Shown here piece after piece: positions 1 to 41,608 of a stretch of DNA of 55,794 nucleotides. The DNA is from Rubrivivax sp. (GTDB lineage Bacteria > Pseudomonadota > Gammaproteobacteria > Burkholderiales > Burkholderiaceae_C). Under the pieces are notes generated by a model. That model did not search any database. It saw nothing but the letters and a program-made list of their open reading frames with translations, and was not told where the DNA came from. The position numbers and the translations under genes were made by a program. The DNA lies in assembly GCA_004210455.1 (NCBI GenBank), contig SEFA01000039.1:1-55794 (forward strand), written 5' to 3'. The number at the start of each line of letters is the position of its first letter. Within the stretch, counting starts at the first letter, position 1.

Positions 1-27
1 CGTCGGGGCGGGGGAGCGGCGGGCCAT
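1..27 (-). CDS. Possible 5' end of a divergent gene, cut by the window edge
   Basis: An ATG on the minus strand at 27 opens a frame reading M-A-R-R-S-P-A-P-T to the window edge. It points away from the dehydrogenase gene and lies directly beside a palindrome at 29-50. That is the usual layout of a divergent regulator next to its target. Only nine codons are visible and no ribosome binding site precedes them, so this is a weak inference. Confidence 0.25.
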
Positions 28-36888: not shown

Positions 36889-38247
36889 TTACAGGCCGCG
36901 GAGGATCTCGATGGCGTCCTCGATGCGGGCGACCGGGTGGACGGTCAGGCCGTCGATGGGTTTCTTCGGCGCGTTGGCCTGCGGCACGACCGCGATCGAG
37001 AAGCCCAGCTTGGCGGCTTCCTTCAGCCGTTCCTGGCCGCGCGGCGCGGGCCGCACCTCGCCGGCCAGACCGACTTCCCCGAAGGCGAAGAAGCCCTTGG
37101 GCAGCGGCTTGCCGCGCAGCGAGCTCTGGATCGCGAGCAGCACGGCCAGGTCGGCCGCCGGCTCGCTGATGCGCACACCGCCGACGGCGTTGACGAAGAC
37201 GTCCTGGTCCATCGTCGCGACGCCCGCATGCCGGTGCAGCACCGCGAGCAGCATCGCGAGGCGGTCGCGCTCCAGGCCCACCGACAGCCGGCGCGGGCTG
37301 GGGCCGCCGCCGTCGACCAGCGCCTGCAGCTCCACCAGCAGAGGCCGCGTGCCTTCCAGCGTGACCAGTACGCAGGAGCCGGGCACCGGCTCGCCGTGCG
37401 TGGACAGGAAGATCGCGCTCGGATTGGTGACGCCCTTCAGGCCCTTCTCCGTCATGGCGAAGACGCCGATCTCGTTGACCGCGCCGAAGCGGTTCTTGAT
37501 CGCGCGGACCAGCCGGTAGCTGCTGTGGGTGTCGCCCTCGAAGTAGAGGACGGTGTCGACGATGTGTTCCAGCACGCGCGGGCCGGCCAGCGCGCCCTCC
37601 TTGGTCACGTGGCCGACCAGCACCATGGCGCAGCCGCCGGACTTGGCGGTGCGGGTGAGTTGCGCGGCGCATTCGCGGACCTGCGCGACCGATCCGGGCG
37701 CCGAGGACAGCTGCTCGGAGTACATCGTCTGGATGGAGTCGATGACGCAGAAATCGGGTTTCTCGACCTCGATGGTGGCGAGGATCTTTTCCAGGCCGAT
37801 CTCCGCCAGCACGCGCACCTGCGAGCCGTCCAGGCTCAGGCGGCGGGCGCGCATCGCGACCTGCGCGCCGGACTCCTCGCCGGTGACGTAGAGCACCTTC
37901 ATCTGGCGGGAGAGCGCGTCGACCGCCTGCAGCAGCAGCGTCGACTTGCCGATGCCCGGATCGCCGCCGATCAGCACCACGCCGCCGGTGACGATGCCCC
38001 CGCCCAGCACGCGGTCGAGTTCTTCCAGCGAGGTGGGGGTGCGCTCGAAATCGCGGGCCTCGATCTCGGACAGGGTCGCGACGGGCTGGCTGCGGGCCAG
38101 CGCCTGGAAGCGGTTCTTCCCGCCAGCGGGCTCGGCGGCGGTCTCGACCAGGGTGTTCCAGGCACTGCAGGACGGGCAGCGGCCCAGCCACTTGGCGCTG
38201 GTGGCGCCGCATTCGGAGCAGACGTATTGGGATTTCTGGGTGGCCAT
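36889..38247 (-). CDS. radA: DNA repair protein RadA
   Basis: The 452-residue branch-migration ATPase acts with RecA in recombination. It has the C4 zinc finger (Cys10, Cys13, Cys24, Cys27), Walker A GDPGIGKST (95-103), the RadA-specific KNRFG motif (in AIKNRFGAVNE), and a C-terminal Lon-like domain. It is first in the minus-strand cluster; the 5' side is the 11-bp motif array at 38272-38428, so the array may carry the promoter. Confidence 0.95.
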   Translation of the reverse strand: MATQKSQYVCSECGATSAKWLGRCPSCSAWNTLVETAAEPAGGKNRFQALARSQPVATLSEIEARDFERTPTSLEELDRVLGGGIVTGGVVLIGGDPGIGKSTLLLQAVDALSRQMKVLYVTGEESGAQVAMRARRLSLDGSQVRVLAEIGLEKILATIEVEKPDFCVIDSIQTMYSEQLSSAPGSVAQVRECAAQLTRTAKSGGCAMVLVGHVTKEGALAGPRVLEHIVDTVLYFEGDTHSSYRLVRAIKNRFGAVNEIGVFAMTEKGLKGVTNPSAIFLSTHGEPVPGSCVLVTLEGTRPLLVELQALVDGGGPSPRRLSVGLERDRLAMLLAVLHRHAGVATMDQDVFVNAVGGVRISEPAADLAVLLAIQSSLRGKPLPKGFFAFGEVGLAGEVRPAPRGQERLKEAAKLGFSIAVVPQANAPKKPIDGLTVHPVARIEDAIEILRGL

Positions 38248-38271
38248 GGGGCGCGATTGTCGCCGCCCGCG

Positions 38272-38428
38272 CTGTGGACAACCCTGTTGAGAAGCCTGTG
38301 GATGGGCGGTGATCCGGCTGTGGACCTGTTGTGCGTACGTTGTGGGCCGTCTGTGGGTTGATCGTGGTCAACCCCGCAGCCCAGCTGTGGGAGACCTGTG
38401 CGCAAGCTGTGAGTCGGGTGTGTGCAAC
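38272..38428. promoter_or_regulatory. Array of about fourteen TGTGG-type motifs at 11-12 bp spacing
   Basis: CTGTGG or near variants begin at 38272, 38284, 38296, 38307, 38318, 38329, 38340, 38351, 38362, 38385, 38396, 38407 and 38418; the unit expected at 38373 is degenerate. The spacing is 11 or 12 bases, about one DNA turn, so all motifs face one side of the helix. The first unit contains TGTGGACAA, one base from a perfect DnaA box. The period is not a multiple of three, so it is not coding repetition. It fills the gap between radA and the MutS-like gene. Confidence 0.75.
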
Positions 38429-38540
38429 CGTCGTCCTGGCACTGCATCGGGGGTTGTTTCTCCCTCGTGGAGCACCATCTGAAGACCCCGATCTGCCGAC
38501 CGCAGGCCCTCTGGCATCCACACCTTCAGCACAACGACCG

Positions 38541-40247
38541 ATGACCCTGCCCCACGTCGACCGCGTCCTGGGACGATTCAAGCGGATCCGGGCCGTGTTC
38601 TCGGAATCGTTCGCCAATACGCGTCCGCACTCGACTTCTTACGACTGGTTTTCGGAGAGCGAGGTGGCCAGCCTCGACCGCGCGAAGGACGTCGACGCGC
38701 CGGAGCACGTCGACGACCAGTCGTGGCGGGACCTGGACATGCCGGCGTACCTCAGTCGCATCGGCCAGCGAGCCAGCCTGTGCGCCCGCCAGGCGACCTA
38801 TCGACGCCTCAGGCGGGGGGCGACCGCCCAGGGTGTCGTCGCCGACCTGCTCCGGGCGCATTCCCCCGCTGAACTTACCGCGTTGATCGAACCCGCCGAG
38901 CCCATCCGGGATGCCCTGCGCTGCGCCAGCGACGACATCACGCCGCATCTGTTCCATGGCGCCAGGATCGTCACCCCGGGTTGGGCCGAACGCCTGTGGC
39001 TGGCGCCCTGGGGGCTGGCGCTCGTCTGGACCTTGCAGTGGCTGTTCGCCTGGCCCGCGACCGTCGGGATCGGTGCGACGCTGGCCTACATGGGTCTCGT
39101 CGGCTTCGTGCAGATCCGGCTGTTCCCGCGCCTCCAGGAATGGAAGAAGCTCCGAGCCGGGCTGCAGCTGGTTCTCGCATCGGCCCGATCGTTCGGAGAG
39201 CTGGGCGTCACCCGCCGCGGCCGCCTGTACGAGGCGCTGACAGATGATCTGGCCGAGACGGACCGGCTCGCCGCGCTGATCTCGGGGCGTCTGTATGACC
39301 GCTTCGCGGGGATCGCGGAATACGCCAACCTGCTGGCGATGAGCGAGTACGCGACGCTGCGCGCGTCAGTGGAACGGTTCGAAGCCGCCCTTCCGTCGCT
39401 GCGTCGGGTCTATGAGCGAGTGGCGGAATGCGAGGCGGATCTGTGCTTCCTTGAGCACGCGCTCTCCGCCGGCCAGCTCTGCGTCGCCAGGCTGGAGACG
39501 GACGGGGATGTCGTCTTCACGGATCTGAAGAGTCCGCTCTTCGACGACTGCCAGCCGCTCAGCTTCAGGATGGGCGACAGGAGCCTGCTGCTCAGCGGGC
39601 AGAACGGCATCGGAAAGAGCACGCTGCTCCGGGCCATCGGCATCAACCTGCTGGTCGCGCGCGCCTTCGGCGTCTGCTATGCCGCCCAGGCGCGGGTGCC
39701 TCCGGTGACCGTCTGGGTGAGCATCGAGAACAAGGATTCGATCGAGGACCGCCAGAGCCTCTACATGGCTGAACTGCTGCGCGCCCAGACCCTGGTCAAG
39801 GCCGCCGAATCGGAGGGCCGGACTGCCTTCTTCATCATCGACGAGATCTTCCGCGGCACCAACAACATCGAATCCGTGGCGGCCGGGGCCGCAGTGCTGC
39901 AGCATTTGGCCGCGCATGCGCGGGTCGTCGTCACTTCCCACAACCTCGCGCTGGGCAAGATCCTGCGGCGCGGCTATCGGTCGCTCCATCTGGCCCGGAC
40001 GCAGGGCAAGGGGCTGATCCTCGAAGACGGGCTGCTGCCCGACACCAACGGGATCGCGCTCATGGGCCGCTACGACTTTCCGCCGTCCGTCCTGCGGGAG
40101 GCGGACCGGGTGCGGGCCTGGTATGCCGACTACGTCCTTCAGCCCGGCGACTTCCCGCTGGAGGACGGCGCGGGCCGCGAACCGACCCACAGTCCGGCGA
40201 AGGTCAGCCCGGCATTCACCAGCAGCAGCTCCAACCCCATCCGGTAG
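38541..40247 (+). CDS. Membrane MutS-like ATPase
   Basis: The 568-residue protein ends in a MutS-type ABC ATPase domain: Walker A GQNGIGKST (353-361), Walker B FFIIDE (430-435) followed by FRGTN, the MutS DE-x-RGT variant, and TSHN at 465-468. Residues about 152-190 form two membrane helices, and helical clamp-like sequence follows. The MutS mismatch-recognition N-terminus is missing. It probably acts at the membrane rather than in classic mismatch repair. The ATG at 38541 excludes the motif array from the gene; a longer frame from 38331 is rejected. The last 109 bases overlap the tail of the symporter gene. Confidence 0.8.
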   Translation: MTLPHVDRVLGRFKRIRAVFSESFANTRPHSTSYDWFSESEVASLDRAKDVDAPEHVDDQSWRDLDMPAYLSRIGQRASLCARQATYRRLRRGATAQGVVADLLRAHSPAELTALIEPAEPIRDALRCASDDITPHLFHGARIVTPGWAERLWLAPWGLALVWTLQWLFAWPATVGIGATLAYMGLVGFVQIRLFPRLQEWKKLRAGLQLVLASARSFGELGVTRRGRLYEALTDDLAETDRLAALISGRLYDRFAGIAEYANLLAMSEYATLRASVERFEAALPSLRRVYERVAECEADLCFLEHALSAGQLCVARLETDGDVVFTDLKSPLFDDCQPLSFRMGDRSLLLSGQNGIGKSTLLRAIGINLLVARAFGVCYAAQARVPPVTVWVSIENKDSIEDRQSLYMAELLRAQTLVKAAESEGRTAFFIIDEIFRGTNNIESVAAGAAVLQHLAAHARVVVTSHNLALGKILRRGYRSLHLARTQGKGLILEDGLLPDTNGIALMGRYDFPPSVLREADRVRAWYADYVLQPGDFPLEDGAGREPTHSPAKVSPAFTSSSSNPIR

Positions 40248-41608
40248 TCGCCGAACAGGGCGGCCTGGTGGGCGTCGATCACCCAGCACAAGGCCGGGGC
40301 CGCCAGCGCGATCCACGGCAGCACGCCCGCGCGCAGGGTCCGCGTCGTCAGGATGCCGAAGGCGAACAGTCCCAGCAGCGGTCCGTAGGTGTAGCCCGCC
40401 AGCTTGAGGATCAGGGAGACCATGCTCGGGTCGTCGAGCCAGCGGAAGCCCAGCGTCAGCAGCAGGAAGACCAGCGCGTAGCCCAGGTGCACCGCCTTGC
40501 GGATGCGGCGCTTGCGGGCCTCGTCCCAGTCGTGGCGTTCCTGCAGGCCGATCAGGTCGATGCAGGTGCTGGACGTCAGCGCGGTGATGGCGCCGTCGGC
40601 GCTCGGGAACAGCGCCGAGATCAGCGCGACCACGAAGATCAGCTGCACCCAGGCCGGCAGGTGGCCCATCACGACGGCGGGGAAGAGCCGGTCGCCGTGG
40701 GCGCTGATGTCCTGCTGCTGCGCATACATGGTCAGCAGGCCGCCGAGGAACAGGAACAGCAGCACGACGACGGTCATGATGGCCGCCATCACCATCATGT
40801 TCTTCTGCGCGTCGGCCAGGCGCCTGACCGAGATGTTCTTCTGCATCATCTCCTGGTCCAGGCCGGTCATGGCGACGGCGATGGCCGCGCCGGCGAGCAG
40901 CTGCTTGGCCCAGTGCGAGGCGCTCATCGGATCGGTGACGAAGACGTCGGCGAGGCCGGCCACGCGCATCGCCTGCCAGCCCGACGCCAGGTCCAGGCCC
41001 AGCGCGTGGAGCAGGAACACCACGCAGATCACCAGGCCGCCCAGCATGCCGGTGGTCTGCAGCGTGTCGGTCCAGACGATGGTCTTGACGCCGCCTTCCA
41101 GCGTGTAGAGCAGGATCATCACGAGCACCAGCAGCGCGCTGAGCCAGAACGGCATGCCGAACTGGGCCAGCACCAAGTCCTGCAGGATGCGCACGACGAG
41201 GTAGAGGCGGGCGGTCGCGCCCAGGGTGCGGGACAGGATGAAGAAGCCCGCGCCGGTGCGGTGGGCGGCGACACCCAGCCGCGCGCCGAGGTAGCGGTAG
41301 ATGGAGCTGAGGTTCAGCCGGTAGTAGAGCGGCAGCAGCACGAAGGCCACGACGGCGTAGCCGGCGAACTGGCCGATCATGATCTGGAAGTAGCTGAACG
41401 CGCCGGCGCCGACCGAGCCCGGCACGCTGATGAAGGTCACGCCGGAGAGCGACGTGCCGATCATCCCGAAGGCGACCAGGCCCCAGTGGCTGTTGCGGTT
41501 GCCGATAAAGAAGCTGTCGTTGTCCGCGCGGCGGGACGTCCACCAGGCCACCGCCAGCAGCAGCGAGAAGTAGGCGACGACGACGGCGAGCAGGACGGAG
41601 GCGGACAT
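40139..41608 (-). CDS. Sodium:solute symporter
   Basis: The 489-residue inner-membrane protein has about 13 helices and the SSS-family pattern: GLVAFGMIGTSLSGVTFISVPG near residue 55, RTLGATARLYLVVRI, and GLDQEMMQKNISVR. It couples Na+ entry to uptake of an unknown organic solute. The C-terminal 36 codons overlap, on the opposite strand, the end of the MutS-like gene. It is divergent from the LysE gene across about 145 bases. Confidence 0.88.
   Translation of the reverse strand: MSASVLLAVVVAYFSLLLAVAWWTSRRADNDSFFIGNRNSHWGLVAFGMIGTSLSGVTFISVPGSVGAGAFSYFQIMIGQFAGYAVVAFVLLPLYYRLNLSSIYRYLGARLGVAAHRTGAGFFILSRTLGATARLYLVVRILQDLVLAQFGMPFWLSALLVLVMILLYTLEGGVKTIVWTDTLQTTGMLGGLVICVVFLLHALGLDLASGWQAMRVAGLADVFVTDPMSASHWAKQLLAGAAIAVAMTGLDQEMMQKNISVRRLADAQKNMMVMAAIMTVVVLLFLFLGGLLTMYAQQQDISAHGDRLFPAVVMGHLPAWVQLIFVVALISALFPSADGAITALTSSTCIDLIGLQERHDWDEARKRRIRKAVHLGYALVFLLLTLGFRWLDDPSMVSLILKLAGYTYGPLLGLFAFGILTTRTLRAGVLPWIALAAPALCWVIDAHQAALFGDYRMGLELLLVNAGLTFAGLWVGSRPAPSSSGKSPG

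Follow-up and report, generated by a model that had tools for sequence, protein, structure and literature searches.

A phased array of DnaA-box-like units upstream of radA in Roseateles

Upstream of radA in the window, i.e. the whole stretch of 55,794 nucleotides that was analyzed, short and similar units recur at steps of 11 or 12 bases, which raises the question of whether they are read by a protein, and if so by which one, or whether they are the remains of a tandem repeat. The array is intergenic, with radA on one side and a divergent gene for an ATPase with a MutS_V domain on the other, and the features of the locus are as follows.

36889..38247, minus strand: radA (sms), DNA repair protein RadA (TIGR00416, 615.9 bits, cut-off 403.05), with its start codon at 38247
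38256..38261, minus strand: GACAAT, presumptive -10-like hexamer of radA, found just ahead of the start of radA in all 15 genus loci printed
38272..38428, plus strand: array of 14 units that recur every 11 or 12 bases, consensus CTGTGG-R-Y-R-R-S
38273..38281, minus strand: strongest box, TTGTCCACA, matching TTATCCACA at 8 of 9 letters, at the radA end of the array and followed by two 3-base gaps
38541..40247, plus strand: 568-aa ATPase with MutS domain V only (family f24; PF00488, 54.3 bits), divergent from radA
40139..41608, minus strand: sodium:solute symporter (family f12; PF00474)

The gene beyond the array was called MutS-like in the initial annotation, which is correct for its ATPase domain (PF00488) but not beyond it, since no MutS equivalog scored above its cut-off for the 568-aa protein. 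The f24 ATPase gene was seen at the radA locus of G005 as well, and in none of the eight further neighbourhoods of radA that were compared. In four relatives with an array (G002, G004, G006 and G008), synteny places the f12 symporter gene next past the array, so that the array sits between this co-directional gene and radA.

Cut by hand, the units start at 38272, 38284, 38296, 38307, 38318, 38329, 38340, 38351, 38362, 38374, 38385, 38396, 38407 and 38418; ten of the steps are 11 bases and three are 12 bases, and no other step occurs in the window array. The recurrence at 11 or 12 bases between 38272 and 38428 that was noticed initially is thereby confirmed, with 14 units and with far lower scores in shuffled sequences and Markov-simulated windows. 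Six pairs of TGTG were found at lag 11, as compared to a maximum of one in 200 Markov-simulated windows of equal size, and autocorrelation gave a lag-11 self-identity of 0.43, as compared to 0.275 ± 0.034 in shuffles, none of which (0 of 2000) reached 0.43. The original description as fourteen TGTGG units holds for their number but overstates the core, as TGTG is in register in 10 of the 14 units and TGTGG is exact in only 6; also, two units rather than one (placed at 38373) are strongly degenerate, those at 38307 and 38374, which match the DnaA box at only 3 of 9 letters. In the 6.3-Mb genome of the window (G000), three TGTG spaced by 11 bases were matched four times, always within the array, and the reversed control pattern once. 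Across lags 5-30 in the window and ten regions from relatives, and apart from triplet lags, strong stretches of 150 bases were obtained solely at lag 11 and at twice that value, 22; these stretches were confined to four radA arrays (window, G008, G006 and G002), the array of G004 being below the threshold. An RNA family search of positions 38000-38800 gave no match at E-values up to 1.

We compared the locus to the radA upstream regions of related genomes. By RadA, the closest relatives are Roseateles, with the RadA of R. noduli at 100%. In total, 30 loci from 60 genomes were viewed, 15 from Roseateles and 15 from other genera; one genome, G013, has no full radA match. The array was found directly upstream of radA in 5 of the 15 Roseateles loci (G000, i.e. 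the window, G008, G006, G004 and G002), and no array was seen upstream of radA in the other 10 or in the 15 loci of other genera. The 11-base phase is thus shared with four relatives: the first TGTG-to-TGTG gap is 24 in all five array genomes, and of the 28 later gaps 25 are divisible by 11, the other three being 34, 2 and 21. At the radA end, G000, G008 and G006 share the block CTGTGGACAACC-CTGTTGAGAAGC-CTGTG without a difference, G004 has it with one mismatch and G002 is more diverged, while the middle of the array has turned over fast between species and the unit number ranges from 10 to 20. Over the 72 units that the five arrays comprise, columns 1-5 are conserved (0.7-1.3 bits) and the rest weakly so (0.2-0.5 bits), with a preference for R-Y-R-R in the tail. 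Two scans covered 80 named loci from the RadA comparison; the TGTG-pair scan found none, at a threshold by which three of the five radA arrays also went undetected, and the lag-11 scan found no array, only a run of N, and also missed the array of G004.

Read on the minus strand, each unit consists of a DnaA-box-like 9-mer plus a gap of 2 or 3 bases, and the consensus of the 72 units corresponds to TGTGGATAA (TTATCCACA) with transitions. We examined the tails of the 60 distinct units by permuting the letters within each tail, unit by unit. Letters 7-10 matched ATAA 81 times, as compared to 52.7 ± 4.5 after permutation (0 of 5000), and RYRR was matched 183 times as compared to 131.6 ± 6.9; taken genome by genome, the ATAA test was passed by four of the five, and G004 alone failed (p 0.06). 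When 9-mers related to TTATNCACA were sought in the same orientation, 10 of the 14 window units matched TTATCCACA at 6 or more of 9 letters, for which the base rate is 0.4% per position. The exact TTATCCACA occurs only nine times in the 6.3-Mb genome, and TTWTNCACA occurs 27 times, as compared to 16 for the reversed control. A perfect TTATCCACA stands at the far end of the array in G002 and G004 only, and the window has the 8/9 box TTGTCCACA at the radA end. Counted from this strong box, the first two gaps in the window are of 3 bases, and the later ones are of 2 bases except for a single gap of 3. As for the spacing, DnaA of E. coli is reported to favour box pairs separated by 2 or 3 bp (PMC11317965), and within E. 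coli oriC weak sites are described as 2 bp apart, with 3 bp between R4 and C1 (PMC6727663).

DnaA itself was identified above the cut-off of TIGR00362 in 16 of 16 genus genomes, and residues 423-514 of the G000 protein match chain 1j1v_A (2.4e-30), which we take to be domain IV of E. coli DnaA. All scans for clusters of DnaA boxes used a crude matrix with our own penalties on the DnaA-box consensus. One scan covered 1.53 Mb that had not been picked for matches to dnaA, lepA or the array and that included a 400-kb stretch of G006 chosen to span radA and dnaA; here, the top cluster was the radA array of G006, followed by a candidate oriC and then by the window array; the region upstream of dnaA came sixth. 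In a wider scan of 1.92 Mb, which included loci fetched for dnaA, lepA and radA that the narrower scan omits, the radA arrays ranked 5, 7/8 (one locus present twice), 10, 14 and 16. Other matches in these scans were L277 (fifth in the 1.53 Mb), L167:3794 and L169:15392, both inside genes of family f18, and L294, L304 and L289 (in the 1.92 Mb).

Our preferred reading, to which we assign a probability of roughly 0.6, is that the array represents a row of mostly low-affinity DnaA boxes in one orientation, with gaps of 2 or 3 bases, anchored at the radA end by the near-consensus TTGTCCACA. This suggests a second DnaA landing site away from the replication origin. The proposal of a DnaA-binding site in the initial annotation is thus supported by the letters, by the spacing and by a like architecture at dnaB and lepA-mucD, and we infer the binding itself. 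An A follows TGTGG (T4 of the box) in only 23 of the 72 units, so most units would be weak DnaA sites, which speaks against a DnaA array. The C in column 1, which is outside the 9-mer, is kept in 58 of the 72 units and is not explained by DnaA, and the array is found at only 5 of the 15 radA loci of the genus; both also count against this reading.

Arrays of similar architecture were sought in 399 genomes of the family as CTGTGG four times at 11 bases with at most 3 mismatches, which gave 45 matches in 44 genomes, as compared to 9 for the reversed control. One recurrent and apparently coding sequence, CTGTGGGTGATYTTTGG, presumably the start of yidC, accounted for 21 of the 45 matches. Six of the 13 loci that were viewed share one intergenic region, which is located between mucD/degP and lepA in both cases that were tested (L242, L254); a domain search ruled out that these are dnaA-dnaN origins. 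The sequence was printed for 8 of 30 lepA loci, and in the five from Roseateles TTATCCACA is present between lepA and mucD, preceded at a distance of 11 bases by a variant box, which is TTATACACA in G005, and with TGTGGAT beyond.

mucD-lepA region with DnaA boxes 11 bases apart: L313, L316, L305, L312 and L314 in Roseateles; L242, L253, L254, L256, L266 and L311 in other genera

In four genomes of Roseateles, this region and dnaA are 1.0-1.3 Mb apart. Opposed TGTGG sites were seen in the mucD-lepA region of several genera. Short TGTGGAY arrays with steps of 11-12 were also found between rplI and dnaB in G008 (L353), G005 (L352) and another genus (L263, G178); the identity of DnaB and L9 was confirmed for G008, and L264 was assigned to this region by sequence. 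In the interval from grpE to dnaK, L247 (G377) carries TGTGG units spaced by 11 bases (about 1495-1545), which end in TGTGGATAA. A longer row was found in G015, which has no radA array: L115 (G015:C1, about 41.0 kb) contains 17 units of TGTGGATAA type at steps of 10-12, 41 kb from dnaA, and tops the loci scanned alongside it for DnaA clusters. The tails of all 17 units match ATAA 35 times, as compared to 19.6 ± 2.9 (0 of 5000).

The array is probably not a replication origin, since it contains no AT-rich stretch, and in G006 the skew minimum of a 400-kb stretch and a candidate oriC are located about 170 kb from radA. Its GC content is 62%, and 60-base windows across 38248-38527 range from 61.7 to 68.3% GC, with no AT-rich unwinding element. 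In the 400 kb of G006 for which the GC skew was computed (1.25-1.65 Mb), the cumulative minimum, in a weak skew, falls at about 1.52-1.53 Mb and not at radA (1.353 Mb), and the secondary origin that the initial annotation had considered is accordingly disfavored. The candidate oriC is characterized by an AT-rich element, TATCTCTYTGGTCGTNTTRGTAG, allowing at most 2 mismatches, and by the TAG repeats and TGTGGACAA boxes that go with it.

Candidate oriC copies: G006:C4:1523223 and 1525302 (L280:13200-15560); G000:C148:62972

The element was found in 15 of 16 genus genomes, in one copy or in two copies about 2.0-2.1 kb apart. In G006, it is located beside queE/queD, where the cumulative skew reaches its minimum within the 400 kb, and in the ten genomes with both on one contig it lies about 70-131 kb from dnaA. 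The distance from radA to the candidate oriC is about 170 kb in G006 and 215 kb in G008, which corresponds to some 3-4% of the genome. No array was seen in the dnaA-dnaN gap of the 8 Roseateles loci printed. In E. coli, the density of DnaA boxes is reported to be at its maximum near oriC in most strains (PMC12371093).

The main rival, and a live one, is that an 11-base unit with a chance TGTGG was multiplied by slippage and then drifted, giving a degenerate minisatellite that no protein reads. We consider such an origin less likely than the DnaA reading. The genus has intergenic short tandem arrays with unrelated units (in G012, G015 and contig C12 of G000), above all in G012, and 11 is the commonest non-triplet period, with seven cases in 1.13 Mb, this array included, as compared to 3, 3 and 2 for periods 10, 8 and 13. 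The variation in unit number between species (10-20) and the fast turnover of the array middle also speak for slippage.

Roseateles degenerate arrays with unrelated units, mostly of 8-16 bases: L206:5893-6132, L212:11239, L202:19741 and L200:9710 (G012); L228:2782 (G000:C12); L124 (G015)

Among the comparison arrays, adjacent units are far more alike in L206, L212 and L228 (lag-11 identity of 0.65-0.85, as compared to 0.45-0.57), which thus look younger, while L124, L202 and L115 are as flat with unit distance as the radA arrays. When the radA-array units were aligned by unit, their likeness did not fall with distance, which sets them apart from the comparison arrays only in part, and the raw phase identity of the window array begins to drop at lag 44, as would follow from its third 12-base step. 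Inside the array bodies, decay is clear in L228, mild in L206 and L212, and hardly seen until the longest lags in L202, L124 and L115. The contrast in decay between radA arrays and the others weakens once flanking units are cut away, as it depended in part on these and on lost register; this makes the DnaA reading somewhat less likely and a minisatellite or an unknown protein slightly more so. In favour of selection, the identity of the core between units is 0.60-0.66 at all distances from 1 to 10, with conservation confined to CTGTG(G), whereas the identity of the tails (0.31-0.41) is close to the random expectation (0.30-0.43 by column); yet the phase is kept in 25 of 28 gaps, and the tails still fit ATAA.

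An array for some other DNA-binding protein with the core CTGTG, which had been suggested as an alternative, could account for the conserved C in column 1 outside the DnaA 9-mer, but it requires more assumptions than DnaA and appears improbable to us. No regulator gene is conserved beside the array in the synteny compared, and the like architecture near dnaB, between lepA and mucD and, in G015, at 41 kb from dnaA points away from it. Nor does the array resemble that of MraZ, which we rejected: an MraZ-box array has a 10-base period and a (AAA)GTGGG core, and the repeats upstream of mraZ in Roseateles (5 of 16 loci printed) have a period of 10 and an AAAGTG core, as compared to a period of 11 here. 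Least probable, by a small margin, is a rut-like, C-rich leader in which CCACAG about every 11 bases of the radA-strand RNA would load Rho and end or attenuate transcription into radA: the spacing of rut sites is 11-13, the radA strand has 0.38 C as compared to 0.24 G, and in four genomes a co-directional symporter gene precedes the array, but the neighbour in the window is divergent and provides no upstream transcript to end, Rho needs C-rich RNA and not a conserved CACA or R-Y-R-R tail, and a few other 11-base arrays of the genus after stop codons (L120, L128, L206) are, by eye, G-rich on the sense strand.

If the array is bound by DnaA, DnaA-ATP would bind the strong box TTGTCCACA at 38273-38281 and, as DnaA-ATP rises, spread along one face of the helix over the weak units, in the manner of the half-arrays of E. 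coli oriC. The resulting filament could make radA transcription follow the level of the initiator, or hold (titrate) DnaA near the origin, or both. These roles, control of radA and titration of DnaA, are the likeliest in our view, because the strong box is located approximately where a -35 element of radA would be expected and because only a small percentage of the genome separates radA from the candidate origin. With GACAAT as the -10 hexamer, the box would overlap or touch the expected -35 position; this placement is presumptive and assumes the usual promoter spacing.

A source for the array is suggested, if only tentatively, by the f18 gene, which encodes about 300 amino acids with no Pfam family in G005 (L167:3423-4313). 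A match to f18 was found in 9 of 16 genus genomes and in none of the five array genomes; in five of the nine it is adjacent to radA, and in the other four it lies at another place and shows 33-37% identity. In G005 and, more weakly, in G010, the Ser/Thr-rich linker of f18 contains TCCACA repeated in frame with a period of 12; this repeat is missing in G014 and G015. The alignment of linker and array scored 42 for G005, barely above the best of 300 shuffles (39), and 38, below it, for G010. The radA array may thus descend from the linker repeat of an f18 gene that was later lost, which is only suggestive.

A broader proposal, which we regard as speculative and rather doubtful, is that Roseateles carries fast-evolving, orisome-like sites for DnaA-ATP filaments off oriC, whose place varies by species (at radA in five, 41 kb from dnaA in another) and which tie DnaA-ATP to helicase genes (radA, and dnaB via short arrays), the radA array perhaps stemming from the in-frame TCCACA repeat of f18. 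Should DnaA bind, the 14 sites of the window (10-20 in relatives) would provide a natural test of how DnaA-ATP spreads on weak, phased sites without an unwinding element, with the five species versions as a ready-made series; a direct link between the initiator and RadA would be possible, and regulatory or titration arrays could arise and vanish inside one genus.

No description of this array was found in our searches of the open-licence literature, and the known systems resemble it in part. Like datA, DARS and the origin-proximal titration sites of E. coli, the array is a cluster of DnaA boxes outside oriC; unlike datA and DARS, its units turn over fast and it is present at the radA locus in a minority of the genus. 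The double boxes upstream of E. coli genes such as purH are likewise 2-3 bp apart near a gene, and the DnaA regulon is reported to include DNA-repair genes; those boxes are pairs, whereas the array is long, and radA is not among the genes named in the part of that study available to us (PMC11317965). The half-arrays of E. coli oriC (R4-R2 and R1-R2) have four sites as compared to 10-20 here, and the array differs from them further in the missing unwinding element, the position beside radA, the GC-rich host and the variant box TTGTCCACA at the radA end. What the array shares with these half-arrays, as they are described in the source, is the single orientation and the 2-base gaps and, less clearly, since the window box matches at 8 of 9 letters, a strong box at one end with a 3-base gap to the first weak site (R4-C1; PMC6727663).
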